Positions 1 through 54,693 of a stretch of DNA of 64,000 nucleotides are shown in pieces. The translations under genes were made by a program, and so were the position numbers. A model generated the notes under the pieces. That model was not told where the DNA came from, did not search any database, and was given only the letters and a program-made list of their open reading frames with translations. Positions within the stretch are counted from its first letter, which is position 1, and each line of letters begins with the position of its first letter. The stretch is taken from contig NC_092650.1 of NCBI RefSeq assembly GCF_032118995.1, positions 23,694,001-23,758,000 on the forward strand, given 5' to 3'. This DNA comes from Asterias amurensis (taxonomy: Eukaryota > Echinodermata > Asteroidea > Forcipulatida > Asteriidae).

Positions 1-36
1 GTTAGGCGCACGTGATAACCACTACACTACGAAAAC
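1..36 (-). tRNA. tRNA-Val (AAC), cut by window edge
   Basis: This is the 5' half of a gene of the array. The plus-strand GTT at positions 1-3 reads as anticodon AAC. The D arm and the 5' acceptor strand are intact. Confidence 0.8.
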
Positions 37-131
37 TTGACGACCAAACTCCAATATTTAGCTTCCTTCATTTTGGGGATTCCATACCAACCAACAGAAT
101 AAATATAATTTTAAAGTAAACAAAAGAAAGT

Positions 132-204
132 TGTTTTCGCCCGGGCTTGAACCGGGGACCTTGCGCGTGTGAGGCGCACGTGATAACCACTACACTACGA
201 AAAC
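132..204 (-). tRNA. tRNA-Val (CAC)
   Basis: A 73-nt cloverleaf with anticodon CAC read at 169-171. The acceptor stem GTTTTCG/CGAAAAC pairs fully, and the T loop has TTCAAGC. Confidence 0.92.
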
Positions 205-315
205 TTGACGACCAAACTCCAATATTTAGCTTCCTTCAATCTGGGGATTCGTTACAAAACTAACAGAATAAATATAATTTTAAAGTAACCTCACGTCAGA
301 AATACAAAAGAAAAT

Positions 316-388
316 TGTTTTCGCCCGGGCTCGAACCGGGGACCTTGCGCGTGTTAGGCGCACGTGATAACCACTACACTACGAAAAC
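316..388 (-). tRNA. tRNA-Val (AAC)
   Basis: A 73-nt cloverleaf with anticodon AAC read at 353-355. The acceptor stem is perfect and the T loop is TTCGAGC. Confidence 0.92.
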
Positions 389-483
389 TTGACGACCAAA
401 CTCCAATATTTAGCTTCCTTCAATTTAGGGATTCCATACCAACCAACAGAATAAATATAATTTTAAAGTAAACAAAAGAAAAT

Positions 484-556
484 TGTTTTCGCCCGGGCTC
501 GAACCGGGGACCTTGCGCGTGTAAAGCGCACGTGATAACCACTACACTACGAAAAC
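484..556 (-). tRNA. tRNA-Val (UAC)
   Basis: Anticodon TAC at 521-523. The body matches the AAC and CAC neighbours and differs only in the anticodon arm (CGCTTTACAC in place of CGCCTCACAC). Confidence 0.9.
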
Positions 557-667
557 TTGACGACCAAACTCCAATATTTAGCTTCCTTCATTTTGGGGAT
601 TCCATTACCAACCAGCAGAATAATTCTTTTTTTAAAGTAACCCCATGTCAGAAATACAAAAGAAAAT

Positions 668-740
668 TGTTTTCGCCCGGGCTTGAACCGGGGACCTTGC
701 GCGTGTGAGGCGCACGTGATAACCACTACACTACGAACAC
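668..740 (-). tRNA. tRNA-Val (CAC), one acceptor mismatch
   Basis: Anticodon CAC at 705-707. The 5' acceptor strand reads GTGTTCG, giving one mismatch at the third pair. It may still fold. Confidence 0.75.
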
Positions 741-835
741 TTGACGACCAAAGTCCAATATTTAGCTTCCTTCAATTTGGGATTTCCATACCAACCAACA
801 GAATAAATATAATTTTAAAGTAAACAAAAGAAAGT

Positions 836-911
836 TGTTTTCGCCCGGGCTTGAACCGGGGACCTTGCGCGTGTGAGGCACACGACGTGATAACCACAAC
901 ACTACGAAAAC
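836..911 (-). pseudogene. tRNA-Val (CAC) with 3-nt insertion
   Basis: Anticodon CAC at 873-875. Three extra bases between the anticodon stem and the D arm make it 76 nt, and the D stem carries a further change. It is probably inactive. The copy at 4711-4786 has the same insertion, so the two are related. Confidence 0.7.
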
Positions 912-1022
912 TTGACGACCAAACTCCAATATTTAGCTTCCTTCAATCTGGGGATTCGTTACAAAACTAACAGAATAAATATAATTTTAAAGTAACCTCA
1001 CGTCAGAAATACAAAAGAAAAT

Positions 1023-1095
1023 TGTTTTCGCCCGGGCTCGAACCGGGGATCTTGCGCGTGTTAGGCGCACGTGACAACCACTACACTACGAAAAC
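1023..1095 (-). tRNA. tRNA-Val (AAC)
   Basis: Anticodon AAC at 1060-1062. The plus strand has GGGGAT for GGGGAC at the T-stem/variable boundary, and GACAACC in the D loop. Otherwise it is standard. Confidence 0.85.
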
Positions 1096-1190
1096 TTGAC
1101 GACCAAACTCCAATATTGAGCTTCCTTCAATTTGGGGATTCCATACCAACCAACAGAATAAATATACTTTTAAAGTAAACAAAAGAAATA

Positions 1191-1263
1191 TGTTTTCGCC
1201 AGGGCTTGAACCGGTGACCTTGCGCGTGTTAGGCGCACGTGATAACCACTACGCTACGAAAAC
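1191..1263 (-). tRNA. tRNA-Val (AAC), weakened T arm
   Basis: Anticodon AAC at 1228-1230. Two changes in the T arm (CCAGGGC and CCGGTGA on the plus strand) break pairs, so it may be decaying. Confidence 0.65.
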
Positions 1264-1374
1264 TTGACGACCGAACTCCAATATTTAGCTTCCTTCAATC
1301 TGGGGATTCGTTACAAAAATAACAGAATAAATATAATTTTAAAGTCACCTCACGTCAGAAATACAAAAGAAAAT

Positions 1375-1447
1375 TGTTTTCGCCCGGGCTCGAACCGGGG
1401 ACCTTGCGCGTGTGAGGCGCACGTGATAACCACTACACTACGAAAAC
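1375..1447 (-). tRNA. tRNA-Val (CAC)
   Basis: Anticodon CAC at 1412-1414 with full stems. It is the first gene of the block that is copied again 1921 bp downstream. Confidence 0.92.
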
Positions 1448-1558
1448 TTGACGACCAAACTCCAATATTTAGCTTCCTTCAATCTGGGGATTCGTTACAA
1501 AACTAAAAGAATAAATATAATTTTAAAGTAACCTCACGTCAGAAATACAAAAGAAAAT

Positions 1559-1631
1559 TGTTTTCGCCCGGGCTCGAACCGGGGACCTTGCGCGTGTTAG
1601 GCGCACGTGATAACCACTACACTACGAAAAC
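1559..1631 (-). tRNA. tRNA-Val (AAC)
   Basis: Anticodon AAC at 1596-1598 with full stems. Its duplicate is at 3480. Confidence 0.92.
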
Positions 1632-1726
1632 TTGACGACCAAACTCCAATATTTAGCTTCCTTTAATTTGGGGATTCCATACCAACCAACAGAATAAATA
1701 TAATTTTAAAGTAAACAAAAGAAAGT

Positions 1727-1799
1727 TGTTTTCGCCCGGGCTCGAACCGGGGACCTTGCGCGTGTGAGGCGCACGTGATAACCACTACACTACGAAAAC
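1727..1799 (-). tRNA. tRNA-Val (CAC)
   Basis: Anticodon CAC at 1764-1766 with full stems. Its duplicate is at 3648. Confidence 0.92.
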
Positions 1800-1910
1800 T
1801 TGACGACCATACTTCAATATTTAGCTTCCTTCAATCTGGGGATTCGTTACAAAACTAACAGAATAAATATAATTTTAAAGTCACCTCACGTCAGAAATAC
1901 AAAAGAAAAA

Positions 1911-1983
1911 TGTTTTCGGCCGGGCTCGAACCGGGGACCTTGCGCGTGTGAGGCGCACGTGATAACCATTACACTACGAAAAC
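1911..1983 (-). tRNA. tRNA-Val (CAC)
   Basis: Anticodon CAC at 1948-1950. One change (TCGGCC for TCGCCC on the plus strand) affects the outermost T-stem pair. The change is shared with the duplicate at 3832. Confidence 0.85.
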
Positions 1984-2094
1984 TTGACGACCAAACTCCA
2001 ATATTTAGCTTCCTTCATTTTGGGGATTCGTTACAAAACTAACAGAATAAATATTTTTTTAAAGTAACCTGATGTCAGAAATACAAAAGAAAGT

Positions 2095-2167
2095 TGTTTT
2101 CGCGCGGGCTCGAACCGGGGACCTTGCGCGTGTTAGGTGCACGTGATAACCACTACACTACGAAAAC
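2095..2167 (-). tRNA. tRNA-Val (AAC)
   Basis: Anticodon AAC at 2132-2134. It carries single changes in the T stem (CGCGCGGG) and anticodon stem (GGTGCACG), shared with the duplicate at 4016. Confidence 0.8.
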
Positions 2168-2280
2168 TTGACGACCAAACTCCAATATTTAGCTTCCTTC
2201 AATTTGGGGATTCCATACCAACCAACATAATAAATATTTTTTTTAAAGTAACCCCATGTCAGAAATACAAAAGAAAAATT

Positions 2281-2306
2281 ATTTTCCCACTATACACTAC
2301 GAAAAC
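2281..2306 (-). pseudogene. tRNA-Val remnant, internal deletion
   Basis: Only the 3' acceptor end joined to the D arm and 5' acceptor end remains (ATTTTCCCACTATACACTAC). The anticodon arm and B box are missing. Confidence 0.8.
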
Positions 2307-2418
2307 GTGACGACCAAACTCCAATATTTAGCTTCCTTCATTTTGGGGATTCGTTACAAAACTAACAGAATAAATATTTTTTTTTAAGTAACCTGTTGTC
2401 CGAAATACAAAAGAAAGT

Positions 2419-2491
2419 TGTTTTCGCCCGGGCTTGAACCGGGGACCTAGCGCGTGTAAAGCGCACGTGATAACCGCTACACTACGAAAAC
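2419..2491 (-). tRNA. tRNA-Val (UAC)
   Basis: Anticodon TAC at 2456-2458. It has a variable-region change (CCTAGCGCG) and a D-loop change (AACCGCTAC). Its duplicate is at 4339. Confidence 0.8.
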
Positions 2492-2601
2492 TTGACGACC
2501 AAACTCCAATATTTAGCTTCCTTCAATTTGGGGAATCCATACCAACTAACAGAATAAATAAAATTTAAAGGTAACCTAATATCAGAAATACAAAAGAAAA
2601 T

Positions 2602-2674
2602 TGTTTTCGCCCGGGCTCGAACCGGGGACCTTGCGCGTGTGAGGCGCACGTGATAACCACTACACTCTGAAAAC
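2602..2674 (-). tRNA. tRNA-Val (CAC), damaged at base 7-8
   Basis: Anticodon CAC at 2639-2641. The 5' end reads GTTTTCAGAG, which loses the last acceptor pair and the conserved U8. It is probably weak or dead. Its duplicate is at 4522. Confidence 0.7.
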
Positions 2675-2790
2675 TTGACGACCAAATCGAATGATCGACT
2701 TTTTTGTATAAGGGAACACTTTACCAAAAGTGTAATTAATAAAAGTGCAGTTAAAAAGCAACCATTTATGTCAGAAATACAAAAGAAATT

Positions 2791-2863
2791 TGTTTTCGCC
2801 CGGGCTTGAACCGGAGACCTTGCGCGTGTTAGGCGCACGTGGTAACCGCTACACTACGAAAAC
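2791..2863 (-). tRNA. tRNA-Val (AAC)
   Basis: Anticodon AAC at 2828-2830. A T-stem change (CCGGAGACC) and D-loop changes (GTGGTAACCGC) set it apart. Confidence 0.78.
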
Positions 2864-2974
2864 TTGATGACCAAAGTCCAATATTTAGCTTCCTTCAATT
2901 TGGGGATTTCATACCAACCAACAGAATAAATATAATTTTAAAGTAACCTCATGTCAGAAATACAAAAGAAAATT

Positions 2975-3000
2975 ATTTTCCCACTATACACTACGAAAAC
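2975..3000 (-). pseudogene. tRNA-Val remnant, internal deletion
   Basis: It has the same deletion junction as 2281-2306, leaving acceptor ends and part of the D arm only. Confidence 0.8.
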
Positions 3001-3111
3001 TTGACGACCAAACTCCAATATTTAGCTTCCTTCAATGTGGGGATCCGTTACAAAACTAACAGAATAAATATAATTTTAAAGTAACCTCATGTCAGAAATA
3101 CAAAAGAAAAT

Positions 3112-3184
3112 TGTTTTCGCCCGGGCTCGAACCGGGGACCTTGCGCGTGTAAAGCGCACGTGATAACCACTACACTACGAAAAC
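3112..3184 (-). tRNA. tRNA-Val (UAC)
   Basis: Anticodon TAC at 3149-3151. All stems are intact, making this one of the cleanest UAC copies. Confidence 0.9.
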
Positions 3185-3295
3185 TTGACGACCAAACTCC
3201 AATATTTAGCTTCCTTCAATCTGGGGATTCGTTACAAAACTAACAGAATAAATATAATTTTAAAGTCACCTCACGTCAGAAATACAAAAGAAAAT

Positions 3296-3368
3296 TGTTT
3301 TCGCCCGGGCTCGAACCGGGGACCTTGCGCGTGTGAGGCGCACGTGATAACCACTACACTACGAAAAC
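3296..3368 (-). tRNA. tRNA-Val (CAC)
   Basis: Anticodon CAC at 3333-3335. It is the duplicate of 1375-1447. Confidence 0.92.
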
Positions 3369-3479
3369 TTGACGACCAAACTCCAATATTTAGCTTCCTT
3401 CAATCTGGGGATTCGTTACAAAACTAACAGAATAAATATAATTTTAAAGTAACCTCACGTCAGAAATACAAAAGAAAAT

Positions 3480-3552
3480 TGTTTTCGCCCGGGCTCGAAC
3501 CGGGGACCTTGCGCGTGTTAGGCGCACGTGATAACCACTACACTACGAAAAC
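3480..3552 (-). tRNA. tRNA-Val (AAC)
   Basis: Anticodon AAC at 3517-3519. It is the duplicate of 1559-1631. Confidence 0.92.
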
Positions 3553-3647
3553 TTGACGACCAAACTCCAATATTTAGCTTCCTTCAATTTGGGGATTCCA
3601 TACCAACCAACAGAATAAATATAATTTTAAAGTAAACAAAAGAAAGT

Positions 3648-3720
3648 TGTTTTCGCCCGGGCTCGAACCGGGGACCTTGCGCGTGTGAGGCGCACGTGAT
3701 AACCACTACACTACGAAAAC
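3648..3720 (-). tRNA. tRNA-Val (CAC)
   Basis: Anticodon CAC at 3685-3687. It is the duplicate of 1727-1799. Confidence 0.92.
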
Positions 3721-3831
3721 TTGACGACCATACTTCAATATTTAGCTTCCTTCAATCTGGGGATTCGTTACAAAACTAACAGAATAAATATAATTTTAAA
3801 GTCACCTCACGTCAGAAATACAAAAGAAAAT

Positions 3832-3904
3832 TGTTTTCGGCCGGGCTCGAACCGGGGACCTTGCGCGTGTGAGGCGCACGTGATAACCATTACACTACGA
3901 AAAC
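3832..3904 (-). tRNA. tRNA-Val (CAC)
   Basis: Anticodon CAC at 3869-3871. It is the duplicate of 1911-1983, with the same TCGGCC change. Confidence 0.85.
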
Positions 3905-4015
3905 TTGCCGACCAAACTCCAATATTTAGCTTCCTTCATTTTGGGGATTCGTTACAAAACTAACAGAATAAATATTTTTTTAAAGTAACCTGATGTCAGA
4001 AATACAAAAGAAAGT

Positions 4016-4088
4016 TGTTTTCGCGCGGGCTCGAACCGGGGACCTTGCGCGTGTTAGGTGCACGTGATAACCACTACACTACGAAAAC
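4016..4088 (-). tRNA. tRNA-Val (AAC)
   Basis: Anticodon AAC at 4053-4055. It is the duplicate of 2095-2167. Confidence 0.8.
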
Positions 4089-4200
4089 TTGACGACCAAA
4101 CTCCAATATTTAGCTTCCTTCAATTTGGGGATTCCATACCAACCAACATAATAAATATTTTTTTTAAAGTAACCCCATGTCAGAAATACAAAAGAAAATT

Positions 4201-4226
4201 ATTTTCCCACTATACACTACGAAAAC
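4201..4226 (-). pseudogene. tRNA-Val remnant, internal deletion
   Basis: It is the duplicate of 2281-2306. Confidence 0.8.
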
Positions 4227-4338
4227 GTGACGACCAAACTCCAATATTTAGCTTCCTTCATTTTGGGGATTCGTTACAAAACTAACAGAATAAATATTTC
4301 TTTTTAAGTAACCTGTTGTCCGAAATACAAAAGAAAGT

Positions 4339-4411
4339 TGTTTTCGCCCGGGCTTGAACCGGGGACCTAGCGCGTGTAAAGCGGACGTGATAACCGCTAC
4401 ACTACGAAAAC
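4339..4411 (-). tRNA. tRNA-Val (UAC)
   Basis: Anticodon TAC at 4376-4378. It is the duplicate of 2419-2491 with one further change (GCGGACG) in the anticodon stem region. Confidence 0.75.
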
Positions 4412-4521
4412 TTGACGACCAAACTCCAATATTTAGCTTCCTTCAATTTGGGGAATCCATACCAACTAACAGAATAAATAAAATTTAAAGGTAACCTAAT
4501 ATCAGAAATACAAAAGAAAAT

Positions 4522-4594
4522 TGTTTTCGCCCGGGCTCGAACCGGGGACCTTGCGCGTGTGAGGCGCACGTGATAACCACTACACTCTGAAAAC
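4522..4594 (-). tRNA. tRNA-Val (CAC), damaged at base 7-8
   Basis: Anticodon CAC at 4559-4561. It is the duplicate of 2602-2674, with the same loss of U8. Confidence 0.7.
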
Positions 4595-4710
4595 TTGACG
4601 ACCAAATCGAATGATCGACTTTTTTGTATAAGGGAACACTTTACCAAAAGTGTAATTAATAAAAGTGCAGTTAAAAAGCAACCATTTATGTCAGAAATAC
4701 AAAAGAAAGT

Positions 4711-4786
4711 TGTTTTCGCCCGGGCTTGAACCGGGGACCTTGCGCGTGTGAGGCACACGACGTGATAACCACTACACTACGAAAAC
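4711..4786 (-). pseudogene. tRNA-Val (CAC) with 3-nt insertion
   Basis: Anticodon CAC at 4748-4750. It has the same 3-nt insertion as 836-911. It occupies the place where the first copy of the duplicated block has an AAC gene (2791), so the duplication ends here. Confidence 0.7.
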
Positions 4787-4898
4787 TTGACGACCAAACT
4801 CCAATATTTAGCTTCCTTCATTTTGGGGATTCGTTACAAAACTAACAGAATAAATATAACTTTAAAGTAACCTCATGTCAGAAATACAAAAGAAAATT

Positions 4899-4919
4899 AT
4901 TTTCCCACTTGACGAAAAC
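4899..4919 (-). pseudogene. tRNA-Val remnant, larger deletion
   Basis: It has the deletion seen at 2281-2306 plus loss of most of the D arm. Only the two acceptor ends remain. Confidence 0.7.
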
Positions 4920-5030
4920 TTGACGACCAAACTCCAATATTTAGCTTCCTTCAATCTGGGGATCCGTTACAAAACTAACAGAATAAATATAATTTTAAAG
5001 TAACCTCATGTCAGAAATACAAAGGAAAAT

Positions 5031-5103
5031 TGTTTTCGCCCGGGCTTGAACCGGGGACCTTGCGCGTGTGAGGCGCACGTGGTAACCACTACACTACGAA
5101 CAC
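5031..5103 (-). tRNA. tRNA-Val (CAC), one acceptor mismatch
   Basis: Anticodon CAC at 5068-5070. The 5' acceptor strand is GTGTTCG, as at 668-740, and the D loop has GTGGTAACC. Confidence 0.75.
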
Positions 5104-5214
5104 TTGACGACCAAACTCCAATATTTAGCTTCCTTCAATTTGGGGATTCCATACCAACCTGACAGAATAAACATAATTTTAAAGTAACCTCATGTCAGAA
5201 TTACAAGAGAAAAT

Positions 5215-5239
5215 TGTTTTCCCACTACACTACGAAAAC
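5215..5239 (-). pseudogene. tRNA-Val remnant, internal deletion
   Basis: This is a remnant of the deleted class, here with TTGTTTTCCCACTACACTAC. Confidence 0.75.
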
Positions 5240-5350
5240 TTGACGACCAAACTGCAATATTTAGCTTCCTTCAATCAGGGGATTCGTTACAAAACTAACA
5301 GAATAAATATAATTTTAAAGTAACCTCATGTCAGAAATACAAAGGAAAAT

Positions 5351-5423
5351 TGTTTTCGCCCGGGCTTGAACCGGAGACCTTGCGCGTGTTAGGCGCACGT
5401 GATAACCACTACACTACGAAAAC
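5351..5423 (-). tRNA. tRNA-Val (AAC)
   Basis: Anticodon AAC at 5388-5390. One T-stem change (CCGGAGACC) is shared with 2791-2863. Confidence 0.85.
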
Positions 5424-5534
5424 TTGACGACCAAACTCCAATATTTAGCTTCCTTCAATCTGGGGATTCGTTACAAAACTAACAGAATAAATATAATTTT
5501 AAAGTAACCTCACGTCAGAAATACAAAAGAAAAT

Positions 5535-5607
5535 TGTTTTCGCCCGGGCTTTAACCGGGGACCTTGCGCGTGTTAGGCACTCGTGATAACCACTACACTA
5601 CGAAAAC
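5535..5607 (-). tRNA. tRNA-Val (AAC), altered B box
   Basis: Anticodon AAC at 5572-5574. The T loop reads GGTTAAAGCC, so the B box is broken, and the anticodon stem has GGCACTCG. It is the last unit of the array and is probably inactive. Confidence 0.6.
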
Positions 5608-5724
5608 TTGACGACTATCCTGAAAATCACATAGACATTTGGTTGGTAATCCCATTTTTATCAAGGAAGAAATTTCATGCTAGGCAAATTTTTGTGCTTA
5701 GCAGCTCTATGAAATTGGGCCCTG
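5608..5724 (+). mobile_element. Foldback element fragment (GGGCCCAATTTC family)
   Basis: The end reads GCTCTATGAAATTGGGCCCT and the body contains GGAAGAAATTTCATGCTAGG. This matches the right half of the palindromic family seen complete at 23788-24053. It interrupts the last tRNA unit right after CTTGACGAC. Confidence 0.7.
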
Positions 5725-5809: not shown

Positions 5810-5850
5810 GTTAGGCGCACGTGATATTAGGCCTACAGTTAAACTTGACG
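5810..5850 (-). pseudogene. Broken tRNA-Val unit beyond the array
   Basis: The stretch GTTAGGCGCACGTGATA followed by CTTGACGACCAA is the 5' part of a unit plus its spacer. It was separated from the array by the inserted repeat and has degraded. Confidence 0.6.
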
Positions 5851-6559
5851 ACCAATTAGGGGGAAAAAAAGAAATTTCAATGGGCAGTACGTTGTTACCA
5901 ATAAACAAAAAAGGGTAGTTCTTAAACAGCCAATAAAGGATGATCTCAATATTTCAACTGTCACCTTTTTAAGGCCATAATAGACATCGTAGATACCTGA
6001 GTACATTGGAAGATTAGTCTCCCCGGATTTTCTGCTCTCCTCGCTTGAGATTCGGAGAATAGCACAAGACAGGAGATGATGGGAAAAGCTTGTGTCTGCC
6101 TGCTGTGCAGCCTACTGATGCATGATGATGATGATGATGAATAACCATTTTACTCTCATAATTTGCATTTAGTAATAAATAACTCGAGTCAAAAATGCAC
6201 CCGGCCGCGCGGCTTTTTTAGCCGAGAGTCAAAAACGGCTGATCTATTATAATGACCCCTTTGACGCCAGTGACGATTTCCCCTAATTGGGTTTGAACAC
6301 AGTTCTCCAGCTTTAGCAAACTGAGGGTGCTATTTTCCACATCAAATAGCCGCCACTGACGTCACGATTCCTTTGTCGCGCGGGTTTGTTTGACCCCGCG
6401 TTTTTCAGAAACTTGGCTTGGAGCGTGCTGGAGAAAAACCCATATTGTGTTAATGTGAGGTAAGAGACTCGTTATATTTTGTTTATGTTTCCTATGGACT
6501 GCAGCTATTACAAAACTGTAATATCTATATATTTGAGATCATCATTTTATTGGCTGTTT
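5851..6559. other. No gene recognised
   Basis: Short open frames only. A GAT triplet run lies near 6123-6142 and a palindromic TGACGTCA (CRE-like) near 6357. I see no exon with family resemblance. Confidence 0.5.
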
Positions 6560-6594
6560 AAATTACCTCATGTCTGGAAAAAAAAAGGAAACAT

Positions 6595-6671
6595 TGTTTC
6601 TGCCATGGGCTCAAACCGGGGACACTGCGCGTATAGGGCTGGCTCAGTGATAACCACCACGCTACGGAAAC
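6595..6671 (-). pseudogene. Diverged tRNA-Val pseudogene
   Basis: This is a 77-nt degenerate copy of the array gene with many changes and an altered anticodon region. The flanks also match the array spacer (ACCTCATGTC on the left, CTGACGAC and CCAATGTTCAG on the right). A whole unit sits about 1 kb outside the array. Confidence 0.65.
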
Positions 6672-6720
6672 TGACGACAAATTCCAATGTTCAGTTTTGT
6701 TTTTTCGAGGGATTATACGT

Positions 6721-8762: not shown

Positions 8763-8926
8763 ATATTAATAGTAAACTTGCGGGTACAACTATGGGTAAA
8801 AACTCTTTTGAAGGAGTGGTGGCTCTGAAAAGAGCCGATTTGGTCGCGACGTTTCGAATAGTATGCTCTGCTCATCTTCAAGAGTTTTTACCCATGGTTG
8901 TACCCGCAAGTTTACTGTTAATATTT
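8763..8926. mobile_element. Foldback element with 45-bp arms
   Basis: The left arm contains AGTAAACTTGCGGGTACAAC and TATGGGTAAAAACTCTT. The right arm is its reverse complement (AAGAGTTTTTACCCATGG, GTTGTACCCGCAAGTTTACT). The loop holds a motif related to 40341-40407. Confidence 0.8.
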
Positions 8927-9171
8927 AGTTGCTCTTATTCTCCACACCATGCAAAGCTTCAAACACCATTACATTGTCAATTGTCATGTGCTTTAAGCTT
9001 TTTAATAACAATTGATTTGTTTTCCCTAAATGTACAGGAGTCTGTTCGAAAGTACACTTTCTTCTCACTTAGCAGCAAACAGGAACTTGACTTATAACGC
9101 AAACTCCATTAGGCTTCATAGAAGGGAGTTCCTTGGAGGAATGTCTTCATAGATGCTCCTCCTACCCACCA

Positions 9172-19015
<9,844 letters not shown>

Positions 19016-23739: not shown

Positions 23740-24150
23740 CAGACCTGATGTTTCACGGAAGCAAAGTAGGCGATTGCCTCCATGCCCCCTGGGCCCAATT
23801 TCATACAGCTGCTAAGCACAACGATTTGCTAAGCATGACATTTCTTCCTTGGTTAAAACAGGATTACAAATCAAATTTCGACGTGATTTTCAGGATAAGC
23901 AACCAACAGCCGAGTTCAAGCAATATGCAACAAATGGAAATTTGGTTGGTAAAGGTTGGTAAAAGAATTGCAAAGGTTGTATGTTTTTATCACAGAAGAA
24001 ATTTCATGCTAAGCAAATTTGTGTGCTAAGCAGATATATGAAATTGGGCCCTGGTCATTGCCATGGAGCCCAATTTCCGTAAAGAGTGCCCTTTACAAAG
24101 GAGAAAATGCCTTGGTGCCCTGCCCTTCCAAACATTAATCATACAGGCTA
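23740..24150. mobile_element. CTTCGTTTTTGAAAGGGC-type MITE split by insertion
   Basis: ACCTGATGTTTCACGGAAGC to TTGCCTCCATGCCCCC on the left resumes after 24053 with TCATTGCCATGG and AAATGCCTTGGTGCCC. The gap is filled exactly by another foldback. Confidence 0.7.
23788..24053. mobile_element. Complete GGGCCCAATTTC foldback, nested
   Basis: CTGGGCCCAATTTCATACAG and GCTGCTAAGCACAA on the left, with GTGCTAAGCAGATATATGAA and ATTGGGCCCTGG on the right, form the inverted ends. Confidence 0.82.
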
Positions 24151-25429: not shown

Positions 25430-25560
25430 AAGAATTGACAAGAGTGGGATTCGAACCAACGACCTCCGGATTTACGTGCCGGCGCTCTACCAACTGAGCT
25501 ACATGTATCTAGCCCTATATTGGCGGTGTCCCTATTTTGTCAATATCTTTGTTCGGGGGT
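25430..25560 (-). mobile_element. tRNA-derived SINE or tRNA pseudogene
   Basis: The minus strand has an A box (GTAGCTCAGTTGGTAGAGCG) and a B box (GGTTCGAATCCCAC) about 20 bases apart, as in a tRNA. The anticodon stem pairs poorly and there is no acceptor stem, so I do not call a functional tRNA. Confidence 0.6.
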
Positions 25561-33200: not shown

Positions 33201-35398
33201 GTAGAAATTTAGGGAGCCCTTTACCGATGAGAAAATGCCTTGGTGCCCTTGCCCTTTTAAAAAACGAAGCATACACTACAGGTCTGGAGATTCAATAGTC
33301 AGGTAGTCCGGAGCACCAAAGTCTGGCTTTCCAAACTCTGGCTTTCCAAACTCTGGGTTCCAAACTCTGGGTTCCAAACTCTGGGTTCCAAACTCTGGGT
33401 TCCAAACTCTGGGTTCCAAACTCTGGGTTCCAAACTCTGGGTTCCAAACTCTGGGTTCCAAACTCTGGGTTCCAAACTCTGGGTTCCAAACTCGGGTTCC
33501 AAACTCGGGTTCCAAGTCCCAAGTCTGGATTAACCCTTTACAGCTTCAAACCCTCCAGAATTTATCCCCATGGTTTGGTTTTCTCTGGATGGATTTGATA
33601 ATAGAGTATTTTGGAGCAGTCATGTTGGTTGTATCTTTCCTCGCCTTCTACCTCTAGGACCCTGGTTCGAATCCCACCGGGGGCGCTATGTGGATTGGGT
33701 TTCAGTCCCTACCTGATTGTACATTTGTTTTACCTGCATAAAACATATTTGCTTGTTCTTGCATGTTTTGTTTGGTTTTATCTTGTACGCAATTGATGTA
33801 CTTGCTTTAGTATTTAATGTTGCCATCCATTTTTGTATGTGTGGCCAAATAATATTTATCTTGCTAATCTTTTACATTTTGTTATCATTTGTATACTTTT
33901 AATAATCCCATTTTTAGAATTTTACTGTTTTCTTTGCGACAGATACATGTACATTAACGGTAGACCTTGTAACTTTGTTTACAAAATATCGTCCTTGTAC
34001 ATTCTATGGCCTTTCTGTGTGTCATAATTTCCAAAGAGTTATAAAAAATAACAGTTGTAGAAGTTGTGAGATGTGTCTTTTTCTTCATATCAGAAGTTGA
34101 TAACAATCAGACAGTGCCATCTCCATGAAATAAAAGTTTTTGTGTTTTCCTTCTGAGTTTGTACAAATTTTGCCTGCAGAAAGCGGCTCTGTGGCGCTTT
34201 TGTAAACATGTGACATCAGAGGTCACATGGTCTATTCAAGTATTTGTGTATATACTGTTGCCAGGCAGAGTTGACAATGTCCTTGACATAAGCTATGTTT
34301 CTTTGAGGCACTAAATGGGGCTCTAGATGGCTCAACTATTTCCTTTGATTGATGTAATAATTGTTATTTTTATCTCGCATTTTTACTTGCCAAGAAAATT
34401 AAATAATTTTAAAGATGGTTTTGTGTTTGATAGTGTATCCCCTCCCACTTTTGTTTTTTAAATAATTTGTGTAGACATAACTTGATACTTCATTTGATTA
34501 ATTTGGGTTCTTTTTTGATTAATATTTTTGTAGGTTGTTTGTAATGTGCTTTTTATTTTGTAACATATTTTGCAAGTCGGCCTTGAGTTTCTTTCTTGTT
34601 AGGTAGTGTATCCCCTTGACCCCTTCCACTTTTGTTTTTGAAATATTCTGTGTAGACATAACTTGATACTTCATATTATTGGTTTGTTTTCTTTTTATGT
34701 TTAATATTTTTGTTAGTTGTTTAAAAACTGCTTTTCATATTGTAACAATATTTGCCTTGGATTTCTTTCGTTCTCGCTAGATAGTGTATCCCCTTCCACC
34801 TTTGTTTTTCAACTAATTTGTGTAGGCATAACTTGATACTTCATATTATTGAATTTTTTTTTTTTTTATGTTTGATATCTTTATATCTTTGTTGGTTTTT
34901 TGTATTTCAACTTAATCATCATGAATATTATCAAACTGCTCGCACAGGAAAAAAACGCATTTTGGGTAAACAAGAAGAGTCCACAACACCATTTTTTCTA
35001 AAAACCTGTACCATACTAGCCCTTTTAAATATAACAAAATAACTTTTTATCTGATTTTTTTCAACTTTTTTATCTGATTCAGGAACACTTCAGAAGGGAC
35101 AAATGGAGAGGAGAAGAAAGTCAAAAGTGCCCCGTCAACTTCCACAAATCCAAAACCGTTGTCACATAGTCCAACAGAGTTGCTGCAAGACTCATCAAGT
35201 GAATCAGTTACTACCAACGATGTAGACAGACCAGCTCGTAGTGTTAACAACAAGGCCCATGTAGTGAGCATCCTACCCGGACTCGGCTTCTATACTAATA
35301 GTAGTGACTCAGATACATCAAGCAGCGACTCTGAAGTGGACTTGCTTAACTCTGTCATCCACAGGGCGATTAAAAAGAAAAGTTGTCACTCCACTTAG
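30237..35398 (+). CDS. PSME3IP1: PSME3-interacting protein (FAM192A/PIP30)
   Basis: Exons: 30237-30351, 31423-31521, 32176-32306, 32952-33103, 35083-35398 (270 aa; human is about 254). In human it is a nuclear partner of the proteasome activator PA28-gamma, binding through its acidic C-terminus. Conserved stretches are [20 protein letters not shown] near residue 9, then CPEE...[44 protein letters not shown], and near the C-terminus SILPGLGFY followed by a Ser/Asp-rich patch ([12 protein letters not shown]) that fits CK2-type phosphorylation. The first three exons are long charged helices. The intron after exon 3 has U12-type AT-AC signals; if a normal GT-AG intron were used instead, the protein would lose four residues. 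The last 25 codons are tandemly copied downstream. Confidence 0.93.
30636..31025. mobile_element. TTAA MITE family A, copy
   Basis: It starts AGACACTGAGTACATG after TTAA at 30632-30635 and ends AATAGTGTCCAGTGCCT before TTAA at 31026-31029. That right TTAA is also the left one of the next element. It lies in PSME3IP1 intron 1. Confidence 0.82.
31030..31361. mobile_element. TTAA-flanked MITE (AGGGTCTATGTAAC family), copy 2
   Basis: It abuts the previous MITE with one TTAA between them. It starts AGGATTTGTGTACTTTTTG and ends CAAAAAGTACATAGACCCT. The right flank is TTCA, a changed TTAA. Confidence 0.8.
32307..32951 (+). other. PSME3IP1: Putative U12-type AT-AC intron
   Basis: The intron begins ATATCCTTTT, a full match to the U12 AT-AC donor consensus, and ends ATATCAC. 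A branch-site match TTCCTTAAT lies at 32930-32938, its A about 14 bases before the AC end. Exons join in phase 0 and keep the conserved Tyr of KQYT (human KEYR, from memory). Confidence 0.75.
32700..32873. mobile_element. Tigger/pogo-like MITE
   Basis: The ends CAGTAGACTCTCTTTATAAC and GTTTATAAACGAGAGCCGACTG (last 20 considered) are inverted and flanked by TA. The pattern matches pogo/Tigger termini. It sits inside the AT-AC intron. Confidence 0.6.
33116..33285. mobile_element. Complete CTTCGTTTTTGAAAGGGC-type MITE
   Basis: CAGGCCTGATGCTTCACAG on the left and AAAAACGAAGCATACACTAC with AGGT on the right are inverted. The interior has GTCATTGCCTTGGTGCCC and AAATGCCTTGGTGCCC. Confidence 0.8.
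33327..33515. repeat. 14-bp minisatellite
   Basis: About 13 copies of TCCAAACTCTGGGT, with slightly altered end copies. It starts 42 bases after the MITE, in PSME3IP1 intron 4. The three overlapping minus-strand frames here are repeat artefacts. Confidence 0.95.
33641..33720 (+). mobile_element. SINE fragment with B box
   Basis: CCCTGGTTCGAATCCCACCG then GGGGCGCTATGTGGATTGGG. The A-box half is not evident. Confidence 0.45.
34435..34900. repeat. ~175-bp tandem repeat, three copies
   Basis: TAGTGTATCCCCT...CCACTTTTGTTTTT and TAGACATAACTTGATACTTC recur from about 34435, 34608 and 34786 in PSME3IP1 intron 4. Copies are about 85 percent alike by eye. Confidence 0.8.
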
Positions 35399-39448: not shown

Positions 39449-39714
39449 GGGGTGGATTTCATAAAGGTAGTCCTAACTTAGGACTAGTCCTAGGCAATGC
39501 TAAGAGATAGGACCAGTCCTAAGTAGTCCTAACGTAGGACTAGTTCTAGGCAATGCTAAGAGATAGGACCAGTCCTAAGTAGTCCTAACTTAGGACTAGT
39601 CCTAGGCAATGCTAAGAGATAAAACCTAAGTTAGGACTACTTAGGACTGGTCCTATCTCTTAGCATTGCCTAGGACTAGTCCTAAGTTAGGACTACCTTT
39701 GTGAAATCCACCCC
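39449..39714. mobile_element. Foldback with stacked TAGTCCTAACTTAGGAC units
   Basis: GGGGTGGATTTCATAAAGG and CCTTTGTGAAATCCACCCC are the ends. Between them a ~56-bp unit with GGCAATGCTAAGAGATAGGA occurs three times forward, then inverted. A decayed relative is at 58893-59009. Confidence 0.85.
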
Positions 39715-44617: not shown

Positions 44618-47600
44618 TTAATATAAACAGCAGCTCCTCTTCTTTGGCTGTGTCCTTTGTCTCCTAAGCTGAACTGTGTCCGTAGAGTTGTACGGCAAGA
44701 CAGACTCTGCAGGTAACCGCTCACCTAGAAGACGACAAATAAACCCAAATGTTACATAGTTTTCAATACTTGTTTTGTATTTTTATCTAGTGCCATTTGT
44801 CAAGTGCCATTTGCCGTTAATATATGACAGCTGTTTTGATAAAAGTTTAATAATTGATTTTTAAATGTAGCACTTTGTTACAGCCCAACGACTGTATCAA
44901 AGTGCTTCTGACATTATTACCCCTGAGCACTGGGCCATTAATTTGATTCCTTAAACCATCTCAGCTCCCTGGGGAATATACAACCGGCTCCAAGCGAATC
45001 ATTCACTTAAACCATCTCTGCCCTCACAAGTACTCATTTTACCCCCGGGTGGAGAGAACTAATTACAGTTAAGCGTCTTGTTCAGGAACACAAGAGACAC
45101 AACTGGGATTCGAACCCCACATCCCGCTGACTTAACCACCAGATCTTAAGTCCGATGCTCTTATAGCACTCGGCCACGACACCCTACAGTTGGTATAGCA
45201 CCGGCACTTTATTCCAGAAGTTGCAGGTTTAAGTCCCGCTCTGGAGGTAAATTATTCTTGGTTCAACCACAAACAATTCAAAATTTACCCAGTCAGTGTC
45301 ACTTGTGGTTTATAACTTGATAACTTACTTATTTTGAGGAACAAATCTTTAATATTTTCAGCTGTTTTGGCACTTGTTTCTGTGAACACAGCGCCGATAT
45401 CTTGTGCATAGTCCATGGCTGTTCTTGTCTCCACTTCTCTAAGGTCAGCCATGTCAAACTTGTTCCCTGCGATGGCTATAACTATGTTCTCTGGGCCGTG
45501 CTGCTGGAGTTCTCGTATCCAATCCCTGACCTTTACAAAAGAGATCTGAAGAACAAAAGCACAACATGTTTTTTTAAACTTTTTTTTCTGCTCACTCATC
45601 CTGGGCGAACTTTCACATATTATGTCTGACCATTGAATTTCACCCACCGTGGTTTTAAAAGAAACTGTGCCAGCCTAAAGTATGATATCATGTGGTCAAT
45701 GCATCTACACAGCAACCCTCCTACTGTCTGACCGTTATACCACACGTTAACTGTGGTTTTGAATGATATTTCTTATGCACGTCTGCATTATGATACCATG
45801 TGGTGAGTGCATCTACACAGTACAAAGTCAGCCCTCCTACTGTCTGACCCTTTAATACCACACTCTGTTGTTTTGAATAACATTATTCCACCATGGTGTG
45901 CTTTGGGAAGTGTGTTTTACACTAACCTAGTAGGCCTATAGAACTGAATGGGATTGACCCAGTATCTTACAAGAATGAGTACATACGCAGAGCACACTAA
46001 TAGATAATCACCTGACTTGTGATGTCATACACGATAACGGCAGCTGCTGCTCCTCGATAATACATCGGGGCGAGACCACGGTACTGAAATATAAACATGT
46101 ACCAATGATAAGCAATTTGAGACATCTGCAAATAAAGCACTATATACTGTACACCAAAACTATTATTTATTTTAAATACTTTCTGACCAGGCTGACTACC
46201 TGTGATTGTGACAGAGTATTGGATATGAGTTGGCTCCTTAATTGCAACAAAAATATAACAACTTGACTTTAATAGAGAAAGGTTTGAAAATCAATAAAGC
46301 TAAATATTTTTACCTTTTCTTGACCCGCAGTATCCCAGATTTGGAATTTGAATGATTTTTCTCCCACGGATATTGTTTTGGACATGAATGATGCACTGCA
46401 AAAAGAAAATATTAACTATTAACATAATCAGACAAACTAAATAGTCAATTTCATTGTACAAACAACTTTGTTCTGGAAATTTTCCTCATTAAGTAGTAAC
46501 AACAAGCCATTATTACAACAGGGAGAAAAAGAAAAAAGTGGTGATTACCACGGGCATGCTCAGTTTTCTAGCAGTTAAGACATCTCTCTAGAATACAGGG
46601 GGTCATGGGTTTGAATCTCGCCCAGGGAGCCTATAGTTTGTTTTACAACAGGGCTAAAAAAAAAGCACTGCCTAAAAAATTGGTTTAAGCAGTGCCGATT
46701 ATTATAGAGGGGCTACAGGGGGGTGAACCATATTTTTGTTTAGGTTAGTCCAGACTTGCCAACAGTGAAAAATATAGTTTCCTTTTGCTTTCCTCTTTTA
46801 AAACAAGCCGATGTTTAGCGCTCTTGCTATGCCATTTGCAAATTTTTATAAGATAATCTGACGCAAGTGTAAAAACAAATTGTCTGCGTGTAAATGGAAA
46901 AGTGTAACATTTTACGCTGTTAATTTAGATTCTCAAAACTCCAGAATGGGGTGGGGGGCACAGAAACCAATCACAACCCCCCCCCCCCCCCCCACCACCA
47001 TATCCTAGTTACACCATGCCATAAGGGTAAAACAGTTTCATAGCGTGGATTTTGGATTTCAAAATAACGGACTACTACCTAGAGGGTCTAGTTGTGATAT
47101 TGTTGATAACGTAACCCTCCTGGTTACATTATCGCAACCACCTAGGGTCTTACTCTTACCCTATTGTTGGAGGAATAGAGTCTTGGTATGAATCACAAAC
47201 AAAGCGCTGCACAATGCTGGACTTTCCTACTCCAGAGTCCTGAGGAAAAAACAAAATTATCTTTCAATTAAGAATGTAACTTCAAACAATGGCTTAGGGT
47301 AACCTTGATTGCCCAGCATCAACTAGTTGGTATAATGTAACCCTCCTCCCGACGGCGAAGGAGGGTTACGTTATCGCAACTAAGCATCAACTTGAAAGGG
47401 AACTTATTCGATGTTCAGCCTAAAAAATCAACAAGTGGTCGGAACAGCTGTCTCACCATGGTTGAATGAATCATACACGCAAAAACGCTTTGACCAATGT
47501 CATGACTTAGCTTAAACATGATTCTGGTCAAGGTCACCATAACATGAGCTTCAGATGAAGCGTGCCTAGTGCGTTTATTCCAAGTAGATCTGTGTGAAAA

Positions 47601-50644: not shown

Positions 50645-53600
50645 TCACGAGGCTTGGGGTTTGTTTTGGTTAGCTCCCTGACCTAGAAGTTGCTTCTCTT
50701 CTTCCACCAGCTCTTCCCATCTGGTTTGCTCGGCCAAAACTCGCTTTTCTCGCCTTGCGAAGTAGGTCGGGTAGCGAGCTTTTTCTGACGGATGCCAGTA
50801 GTTCAGAACCTGTGGGAGAAAGTAAGTGCCAGACAGTAAGATTAATTCCATAAAACAATTTTCTTCTCATCTAGGTCTATAAATACAGGAATGCAACTGC
50901 TGCATAACAACAAAAGAGAGAAAAATGTTACCAGGCCTGTATGCTTCGTTTTTGAAAGGGCAAAGGCACCAAGGCATTTTCTCCTTGGTAAATATCTACA
51001 GGAGCATTTCAAGGGCATGAAGGCATATTCAGGGGGCATATAGACAATTGCCTCTGTTGCCTTCGTGGAGTATCAGGCCTGGTTACACACAGCAAGATGC
51101 TGTGTCATGTTTGTTTCATTTTCAAAGCATGACTTGAAAAACCCAAACCACAAAAATCAGCTGAAAAGCTGCATGCCTGTACAGCTGAAGCAGACAAAAC
51201 AAAAGTGGTTTCAGAATGTTCTGCTGGGGTGAACAAAATATCCTTTTTCTCTAAACACCACACATACATGTACTTCGTGGGGTGTTGTTTCTGAAATATC
51301 AACAGCTCTCCCATGCTCTTTACCAAGTTATTTTCCAAACAGTACGCGCTGTCCTTAAGTCTACATGGGATAACCAGGGATTATTTTAGCTTCATTTGAG
51401 ACGGTGTGCGCGATGTTAGAGCAGAATGTTGTCATTAATTCAAACACTTACCCATTCTGGAGCAGGGATATTGCGTTCATAGCGTGTTCCACCAGGAGAA
51501 TCAATGACTGAAAAGAAAAGACAAAAAAGAAAGTAATTTCAAGTTTTGAGATATCTTTGTTTGTACTACAAGAAACAAGTCTGTTGTGGTGTGTCCTTGC
51601 AGAAAGGTCTAGTTCACCGAACCCACGCTCTGGTGTGGTCAGCAGCAGAATGTGGGTTCGAATCCCAGTCATGAAACTTGTGTCCTTGAGCAAGGCCATA
51701 GGCACTTAACCATAGTTTAAAGGCAGTGGACACTATTGGTAATTGTCAAAGACTAGCCTTCACAGTTGGTGTATCTCAACATATGCATAAAATAACTAAC
51801 CTGTGAAAATTTGAGCTCAATCGGTCATCGAAGTTGCAAGATAATAATGAAAGAAGAAAACACCCTTGTCACACGAAGTTGTATGCATTAAGATGGTTGA
51901 TTTTGAGACCTCAAGTTCTAAATCTGAGGTCTCGAAATCAAGTTCGTGGAAAATTACTTCTTTCTCGAAAACTATGGCACTTCAAAGGGAGCTGTTTCTC
52001 ACAATGTTTTATACCATCAACCTCTCCCCATTACTTGTCACCAAGAAAGGTTTTATGCTAATAATTATTTTGAGTAATTACCAATAGTGTCCACTACCTT
52101 TAAATGCTGTTGACTTGTCCTCATGCAATGATTACATATAATATACACACGATACCAAGCCTGTATGCTTCGTTTTTGAAAGGGCAAGGGCACAAAGGCA
52201 TTTTCTCATTGGTAAAAGGCACCCTATGTAAACATTTTAAAATTTCTCCCGGAGCATTTCAAGGGCACCAAGGCAATGACCAGGTATGCCTGATATATGC
52301 TTTTCCTCAGAAATCCTTCTATATTTTCTTGGCCAAAATAAAGGATTCAGAAGGACTATAAAGTGCGAAGGCCCAAATAACAATTGTTTATCACCAGGGC
52401 CCAATTTCATAGAGCTGCTTAAGCACAAAATTTTGCTTAAGCAAAAAATTCATTGCTTAGTAAAATCAGATTACCGGCCAAGACTCCACTCAATTGTTAT
52501 GCTAAGTAAATAACAGCTAAATACTAGTCATAAGCAATGTATATGGCATGAAATTTTGGCCAGTAACATGTGTAAAATAAGCGAGCTATTTTCGTGCTTA
52601 AGCAAGTTTTTGCTTAAGCAGCTCTATGAAATTGACCCCAGTCAGGCTCTTCAATCTTATAAAACCCATAATAGTTGGTGTTGAGTGAGCGACACAAATG
52701 AGGGGGGGGGGGTACTAGAGGATTGAGGTCACATCTATAGGCAAGTTAATCTCATGAGTAGGGTTTATTATGTGTCACTAAAAATTTAAACCTTGCAGCC
52801 CACAACAGAAAACGAGTTGTTTGTTCTCACTTGCGGCTCTTGTTACATTCCGTAGGCTACTTACATATGTACGGCTGTGGATGCTGTTTTTGCCAAAGCT
52901 CTTCCTCTCCCTGTTGAAGAAGTCGGACTGCTTTCTTCATATCTGTCTCATTCTTGTGTTCATCAAACCTCGCCCTCAGCAGTGTGACCTCATAACGAAA
53001 GGTTGACCTGGAGTAAACAAAAACAATTGTTTCTTGAGGTCATTGTTTGAAACATAAATATTTGTAAATATTGATTGATGCAGTACAAAATGTAGGCCTA
53101 CACAGACAATTTCAGGAAAACCCGTGTTCACAAGTAAAAGTTAGTGACAATCTAGCTTTAACTTTCATTAAGACAAAGTGCAAAGTGTTATATAATTAAA
53201 AAAAAAAAAAATTATCTGAAAGTGAGAGCTCAACGATTTTTAATATATTGGGCGAAATCTTTGTTTGCCAACACAAATAAAACATGCATGGCTGTGGCAC
53301 AAATTTGACACAAACTACACAGTTTGCATAACTAATTTCCTTGGGAAAAGGATGTGGTTTACAGCATTGCTGTCAGAGCAGTTGTAGAACCCTTATCATC
53401 ACACTAGCGTACAAGAAGATTATGAGGAGTTTTGTATTATAATTATTACCCATAAAAATCAAATAAAACTGAGCTTGCATATGTAAATATTTCATGACAT
53501 GTGGTGAGAATTATGGTTGAACGACAAAGATTACTTGGTTCTCAAAGTTTGCACGGATAACTTTCCGTATGGCGCCAACACCGGCACTCATTTTTACAAA

Positions 53601-54522
53601 AAGGGTCCTCTTTGTATCGAATGAAAAAGTGGTGGCGCACACGGAAACTTTTCAAAGAGTCAATGTTTGTGCCCTAAAAAATCAAAAAAAGAATGGATTA
53701 TACTAGTTATACCATGCAGCATGCAATGCAATGGCGTTTGTTTTATCAACAAAATATATTATATAATTATCTTGCTATTCTTATTAATTGACCATTGTTA
53801 GTTGCATCATGATGCAACTTGCTCTCTAATCCTACCCTTTCATGTCTCCCTGCATTGTTGTCGAACAATACATTTACCACTTTTATGGTCCAGTAACCCA
53901 TCCTTTCATTCTAAACATCCTTTGTCCTCGCCACTTACTCCTATTGGTTCATAGCCACACATTGTCTCTGAAATAGAAACTTTGATTGGCTGTTATTTTT
54001 CCGCTTTTTTCTGGATCCTTTCCTTAATCCCTTTCCCCCTCTCTTTTTCTTTAAATGGATATGCATTTGTTTGTACTTGTTTTATGCCTCTGAAGAAGGT
54101 CCGGATTGGATCGAAAGCTAAGGCCATCTACCCTATTCATTATATAATTATAATTTGTTTAACTTTTCAAAGATTGGGCCCACAAAACAGTGCCACGAAA
54201 CGAACACACAAAGTCAAGTAAATAAGGGTACTGGTTAATTTGGAGGACCACTTTAGATCTTGCCCTTGCCCCTTCTAATCTCAGGGTAAGCATAAATAAA
54301 TAAAACTTGGCAATCAGAAATAAACTAACTTTTGTTGTTGTTGAGGGCGAGTTGACTTTTTAATGGGGATTCGACTGGAATATTAATAAATTTTATTATT
54401 GGAAAGGGAGCCGTTTTCCATGAAACTTTTGCTTACCTGTGTGTAATCCAAGATTGCAAATTTCTTGCTGACTTCTTATAAAGCCGGAGAACTCTCTGTG
54501 CGTGCGTCAGCGAGCTTGCCAT
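50645..54522 (-). CDS. NDUFB9: Complex I subunit NDUFB9 (LYR family)
   Basis: Four exons on the minus strand: 54437-54522, 52865-53007, 51452-51507, 50645-50809 (149 aa; human is 179, so the C-terminus is shorter). It is an accessory subunit of the membrane arm of mitochondrial NADH dehydrogenase. The LYR-type first helix is [19 protein letters not shown]. Exon 2 gives [14 protein letters not shown] and [16 protein letters not shown]. Exon 3 gives [11 protein letters not shown]. Exon 4 gives [19 protein letters not shown] then a charged tail ending NKPQAS. All are direct counterparts of the human protein as I remember it. Junctions are GT-AG and in frame. The start faces METTL17 across 171 bp. 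Confidence 0.93.
50930..51083. mobile_element. CTTCGTTTTTGAAAGGGC-type MITE
   Basis: CCAGGCCTGTATGCTTCGTT, GAAAGGGCAAAGGCACCAAG and CCTTCGTGGAGTATCAGGCC. It lies in NDUFB9 intron 3. Confidence 0.78.
51600..51718 (+). mobile_element. SINE fragment with B box
   Basis: AATGTGGGTTCGAATCCCAG then TGTGTCCTTGAGCAAGGCC and CACTTAACC. It ends at the TTAA used by the next MITE. Confidence 0.5.
51721..52099. mobile_element. TTAA MITE family A, copy (reverse)
   Basis: TTAA lies at 51717-51720 and 52100-52103. It lies in NDUFB9 intron 2. Confidence 0.9.
52157..52290. mobile_element. CTTCGTTTTTGAAAGGGC-type MITE
   Basis: CAAGCCTGTATGCTTCGTTT, AGGGCAAGGGCACAAAGGC and TTCAAGGGCACCAAGGCAAT. Confidence 0.7.
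52395..52640. mobile_element. Complete GGGCCCAATTTC foldback
   Basis: CAGGGCCCAATTTCATAGAG and CTGCTTAAGCACAAAATT are mirrored by CTTAAGCAGCTCTATGAAAT and TGACCCC. Confidence 0.82.
54090..54121 (+). other. Retroelement-tail-like motif
   Basis: CTGAAGAAGGTCCGGATTGG followed by ATCGAAAGCTA. GGTCC and GGATC can pair around a 5-base loop. The order resembles a hammerhead core, but no good third stem or cleavage site is visible. Low confidence. Confidence 0.25.
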
Positions 54523-54693
54523 GTTTGTATAGCAAATAACTTTGGGGTTAATTCCCCGTGTTTTAGACAAGAAAAATAGAGCTGGATTACTTCGTCGGCC
54601 GAGCGGCTTGACTATCAAGTCAGCTAGATATTCGACCGCCGGGCAGAAGAACGCCCTCTGTTGGTGATCGTGTGATTGAAAATTAAAAACAAA
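54523..54693. promoter_or_regulatory. Bidirectional promoter NDUFB9 / METTL17
   Basis: 171 bp lie between the two divergent start codons, with no room for separate promoters. It includes GACTATCAAGTCAGCTAGAT and a CTCF-like AGAGGGCG core. No TATA box is seen. Confidence 0.7.
54650..54664 (-). promoter_or_regulatory. CTCF-like motif
   Basis: The minus strand reads CCAACAGAGGGCGTT, 13 of 15 matches to the CTCF core. It sits 30 bases before the METTL17 start. Confidence 0.3.

Follow-up and report, generated by a model that had tools for sequence, protein, structure and literature searches.

This analysis concerns a tandem array of transfer RNA (tRNA) genes for valine in the sea star Asterias amurensis. 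The array lies at the start of a stretch of 64,000 nucleotides (the window) from contig NC_092650.1 of NCBI RefSeq assembly GCF_032118995.1, positions 23,694,001 to 23,758,000 of the forward strand, and all coordinates below are counted from the first letter of that stretch. It occupies positions 1–5607 on the minus strand. Splitting it at a conserved upstream motif delimits 33 units, made up of 27 full-length tRNA-Val genes, one copy cut by the edge of the window and five relics. With tRNA and spacer repeated head-to-tail on one strand through all 33 units, this is a tandem tRNA gene array. It extends past the left edge of the window, and 27 full-length genes is a lower bound.

Census and anticodons

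ARAGORN finds the 27 full-length genes on the minus strand, spanning 132–5607. The cut copy at 1–36 is a tRNA-Val(AAC) whose 5' half equals the array consensus and whose loop reads CCTAAC. The original prediction, made from the letters of the sequence alone, had counted the same full-length genes and cut copy, head-to-tail on one strand, but its census overlooked the five internally deleted relics. All 27 genes score between 41.3 and 65.2 bits with the Rfam model RF00005 (cut-off 29); an initial scan of the whole window with fast filters gave just 21 of them. A 19-nt motif from the D arm, allowing up to three mismatches, matches 29 times in the window and not once in 100 shuffles, which excludes a chance pattern.

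Direct reading of the anticodon loops gives 13 CAC, 10 AAC and 4 UAC among the full-length genes, the totals originally predicted, and no GAC. Bases A35 and C36 are unchanged in all 27, while the wobble base 34 varies more than any other of the unit's 183 columns. Any N34-A35-C36 anticodon specifies valine, so a change at base 34 leaves the charged amino acid unaltered; AAC, CAC and UAC alleles can therefore coexist without mis-decoding. ARAGORN labels two UAC copies, at 2419–2491 (59.6 bits) and 4339–4411 (54.9 bits), as Stop (tta). This label was rejected: their loop, TTTACAC, reads UAC and is identical to the loops of the UAC copies at 484 and 3112. The label most likely arises because the 27-43 pair is broken in both; the copy at 4339 has two mismatches in its anticodon stem.

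Integrity of the copies

Stems without a mispair and without an insertion are found in 13 of the 27 copies (six AAC, five CAC and two UAC), and assignment to the nuclear tRNA-Val genes is made for these intact copies only. The presence of intact copies of each kind bears out the prediction of one array in which a single tRNA body serves three valine isoacceptors. The exact consensus body is carried by nine copies. Four are CAC, at 1375–1447, 1727–1799, 3296–3368 and 3648–3720 (64.2 bits each); three are AAC, at 316–388, 1559–1631 and 3480–3552 (62.9 bits each); and two are UAC, at 484–556 and 3112–3184 (65.2 bits each). The copies at 484, 1727 and 3648 have a short spacer and that at 3112 a long one. 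A tenth copy, CAC with a short spacer at 132–204 (64.1 bits), differs by G57A alone. The other copies with sound stems are all AAC, at 1023–1095 (A21G and G46A; 59.2 bits), 2791–2863 (55.4 bits) and 5351–5423 (59.6 bits), the last two with one G-U pair. An estimate of 18 to 20 sound copies had been made from the sequence; it holds loosely, as 18 copies score at least 55 bits, but the number comes down to 13 when perfect stems without insertion are required and to 10 on the strict criterion of a consensus body or G57A only.

The defects of the other copies are varied. An acceptor mismatch, 3-70, is seen in the CAC copies at 668–740 (58.3 bits) and 5031–5103 (55.7 bits). A T-stem mismatch accompanied by G15A affects the CAC copies at 1911–1983, where the pair is 49-65, and 3832–3904 (56.5 bits each), and G7A, which breaks pair 7-66, occurs together with T8G in the CAC copies at 2602–2674 and 4522–4594 (52.7 bits each). 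Two stem mismatches are present in the AAC copies at 2095–2167 and 4016–4088 (47.7 bits each), and three in the AAC copy at 1191–1263 (41.3 bits), a probable pseudogene. CAC copies with a 3-nt insertion lie at 836–911 (42.8 bits), where it precedes the anticodon stem and is joined by A14T in a gene that is probably non-functional, and at 4711–4786 (47.2 bits). The AAC copy at the array edge, 5535–5607 (52.2 bits), has a 27-43 mismatch. The five relics, recognized by unit alignment at 2279–2306, 2973–3000, 4199–4226, 4897–4919 and 5215–5239, have lost ~48 bp of the middle of the tRNA, the last of them showing the deletion in its cleanest form.

The signals expected for transcription by RNA polymerase III (Pol III) are present. 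The A and B boxes can be read directly in the tRNA sequences, with the B box of the copy at 5535 disturbed by C56A, and four or more consecutive T are found within ~10 nt downstream of each of the 27 genes.

Spacers and block duplication

The spacers had been described as nearly the same throughout, but three classes can be told apart: long, in units of 184 bp; short, in units of 168 bp whose downstream part is shortened; and divergent, in units of 189–192 bp. Unit alignment and comparison of the blocks described next place divergent spacers at 2675–2790 and 4595–4710.

A 1.53-kb block at 1254–2788 recurs at 3175–4708 with eight substitutions and one insertion or deletion (99.4% identity), and the similarity falls off sharply at both flanks. 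Seven full genes and one relic lie in it, and each of the seven gene pairs agrees in anticodon. The duplication of this block is recent. At its right edge 114 bp of the divergent spacer are identical between the copies, whereas the adjoining tRNAs show several differences, one being AAC and the other CAC with an insertion; the identical spacer may mark the junction of the duplication or else a tract of conversion. Elsewhere, the adjacent units 19 (CAC) and 20 (AAC) have two differences in 184 bp, one of which is base 34 itself. The earlier view that the array is homogenized as a unit does not fit a locus in which multi-unit blocks move, spacer classes persist, about half of the genes are decaying and five relics are retained.

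Shuffling of the anticodon alleles

Anticodon is not linked with the type of body or spacer. Sharing an anticodon does not make copies significantly more similar in the tRNA body (p=0.20) or in the spacer (p=0.15), and a search for anticodon-specific subfamilies on these measures found none. The two alleles at base 57 occur with all three anticodons, giving all six combinations. In the UAC allele U34 is always accompanied by U32, and this pair of bases is found on three spacer backgrounds, so recurrent mutation is a poor account of it. U32 is also found in the human tRNA-Val(UAC).

Origin and function of the array

The array is a clear and fairly ordinary tandem tRNA gene array, growing and decaying by block duplication, with about half of its genes well formed. 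We consider it likely that it is a Pol III tRNA-Val array of ordinary type, shaped by birth-and-death and block duplication, in which a functional subset serves all valine codons. Judging by the boxes and terminators, each tRNA, with its internal A and B boxes and the T4 terminator that closely follows it, probably makes up a Pol III gene of its own. Growth and shrinkage of the array would come from unequal exchange of blocks several units long, while short exchange or conversion tracts would shuffle tRNA alleles among the spacer types; block duplication would carry the isoacceptor mix along. In animal tRNAs A34 is edited to inosine. If that holds here, the AAC copies would read GUU, GUC and GUA, the CAC copies GUG and the UAC copies GUA and GUG, and some 10–13 functional copies, once transcribed and charged, could supply all four valine codons. 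The remaining copies would be drifting or dead. We read the array as a mixture of a core of copies that has apparently been kept functional and a drifting rest.

Several observations weigh against a functional array. Of the 27 genes, 14 have one or more stem mismatches or an insertion of 3 nt. Variable sites are not significantly more frequent in the spacer (43 of 111) than in the tRNA body (20 of 71; Fisher p=0.15). Of the 22 variant types, 11 disrupt a stem when 10.3 would be expected at random, so strong selection on stem pairing, for which this was a test, is not seen. Constraint on the tRNA bodies is weak, and the true source of valine tRNA could be tRNA-Val genes elsewhere. The strongest alternative builds on the defective genes and the stem-breaking variants. 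It takes the array as a mostly silent, decaying tRNA satellite that expands and drifts as tandem repeats do, the cell obtaining its valine tRNA chiefly from elsewhere. The relics, which have themselves been propagated, agree with this, and there is a precedent in the tandem cluster of Ser and Tyr tRNA genes of Arabidopsis, which most tissues keep silent and which includes pseudogenes resembling tRNAs (PMC12308677). Against it, after removal of recent duplicates the tRNA body is half as diverse as the spacer (0.039 versus 0.079; column permutation, approximate p=0.012). Furthermore, the nine exact consensus bodies are retained on several spacer backgrounds, and intact copies of all three anticodons persist together with their terminators. 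The columns of the unit share their history and are not independent, so the permutation p-values are approximate and these tests are indicative only. On balance a silent satellite is improbable.

An error of assembly, with collapsed or duplicated haplotypes inflating the array and especially its 1.9-kb higher-order repeat, seems very improbable. Arrays of short period are difficult to assemble, and two 1.53-kb blocks at 99.4% identity are what such an error might leave, but the nine differences between the blocks are distributed along their length, the other units are diverse and each can be told apart, and the mixture of anticodons would survive a wrong copy number. That the array is a tRNA-derived short interspersed element (SINE) or satellite instead of a set of tRNA genes is hardly credible: tandem repeats with tRNA heads do occur in animals and SINE-like tRNA sequences lie in the window at 25444 and 45187, but the array has a full cloverleaf, valine anticodons only, terminators and no SINE tail, and copies of its unit elsewhere in the 64 kb are not dispersed but limited to the array relics at 5811–5854 and 6557–6700.

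Relation to known tRNA gene arrays

Tandem tRNA arrays, mixed clusters and shifts at the wobble base have already been published in animals. Arrays are described for Hydractinia and Nematostella (PMC11067881); like the one here, these lie in an animal genome and repeat almost identical tRNA units head-to-tail at even spacing, and in Hydractinia such arrays reportedly exist for the tRNAs of all 20 amino acids (PMC11067881). Heterogeneous and homogeneous clusters of tRNA genes were surveyed by Bermudez-Santana et al. in 2010 (PMC2888827), and these too contain genes and pseudogenes in parallel orientation. A cluster in their Fig. 4 mixes tRNA-Arg(TCT) with tRNA-Thr(AGT or TGT), whereas the array here has one amino acid, one body and a regular unit. 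The tRNA array units of Entamoeba (PMC2652664) are likewise tandem, are thought to be homogenized by concerted evolution and in some cases hold several isoacceptors; unlike the present array, they have a fixed gene set per unit, short tandem repeats between the genes and no evident pseudogenes. The variable-number tandem repeat of tRNA genes at human 1q23.3 (PMC4041453) is another animal tRNA-gene repeat, with an unstable copy number, but its units are 7.3 kb long and bind CTCF, compared with 168–192 bp here. The Arabidopsis Ser/Tyr (SYY) cluster (PMC12308677) resembles this array in having a core enlarged through tandem duplication, whose copies comprise major and minor ones as well as pseudogenes, and differs in being from a plant and serving two amino acids.

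Isoacceptor shifts, or tRNA remolding, offer the closest parallel to the wobble alleles (PMC3923123, PMC4981973). The first anticodon base was changed in 39 of 44 such shifts, and one of the positions most often found to covary with them is 32 (PMC3923123), as in the UAC copies here. Those shifts have been described mostly at orthologous loci between species, whereas here the wobble change in one body occurs among neighbours in one array. The original prediction had called the array unusual. This is overstated, because the change at the wobble base is silent for the amino acid, all NAC anticodons belonging to valine, and because 39 of 44 shifts fall at that very base (PMC3923123); animal arrays and heterogeneous clusters are also on record (PMC11067881, PMC2888827). 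Among open-licence papers, none was found that describes this particular array. Exact scans of viral and prokaryotic contigs with the 5' half of the tRNA gave no match, as expected for an animal sequence.

Surroundings of the array

Beyond the edge of the array, sequence comparison finds diverged units on the minus strand, a decayed fragment at 5811–5854 and an old unit at 6557–6700 (~77% identity to array units) in which the wobble region is degenerate. The two are separated by an element at 5922–6561 whose terminal inverted repeats (TTAAACAGCCAATAAA), 16 bp long and perfect, enclose 608 bp.

A dispersed repeat family (~82–89% alike) is represented at 5616–5724, 18743–18851, 23791–23897, 23984–24056 and 52395–52481, the first copy directly abutting the tRNA array. 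Derivation of the array spacer from this copy was considered and rejected, its scores lying within those of shuffles, bar one common 10-mer. The tRNA-like sequences at 25444–25501 (33.5 bits) and 45187–45273 are 72% alike and are probably a tRNA-derived SINE. A marginal match to the Rfam histone 3' untranslated region stem-loop at 8797–8841 (34.9 bits, cut-off 34) is probably due to chance; no histone gene was seen near it. Tandem repeats at 33316–33515, 39467–39621 and 55580–56358 consist of a 14-bp unit repeated 14 times, a 56-bp unit that has TAGGACTAGTCCTA inside it, and 19/32-bp units in which CGATCG is frequent on both strands. Exon regions fit RSPRY1 at 9091–19015 (SPRY and RING pieces), a Rab22A/Rab31-like GTPase at 45285–46290, an NDUFB9-like protein at 54433–54774 and METTL17 at 61463–61855; these neighbours support an animal origin of the sequence.

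Implications

The array illustrates how a four-codon box may be supplied from one locus and how alleles of the wobble base are shuffled. It is doubtful, and less probable than the silent satellite discussed above, that the isoacceptor mix is itself selected, base 34 being kept at intermediate frequency (13:10:4), in an array that holds its bodies alike, since the block must supply all valine codons; were this so, a whole decoding box would be one locus of variable copy number. Near-identical adjacent units that differ at base 34 make the array a compact site in which to follow isoacceptor shifts, tracts of exchange and the turnover of pseudogenes. Should individuals differ in copy number, they could differ in their balance of valine isoacceptors too.

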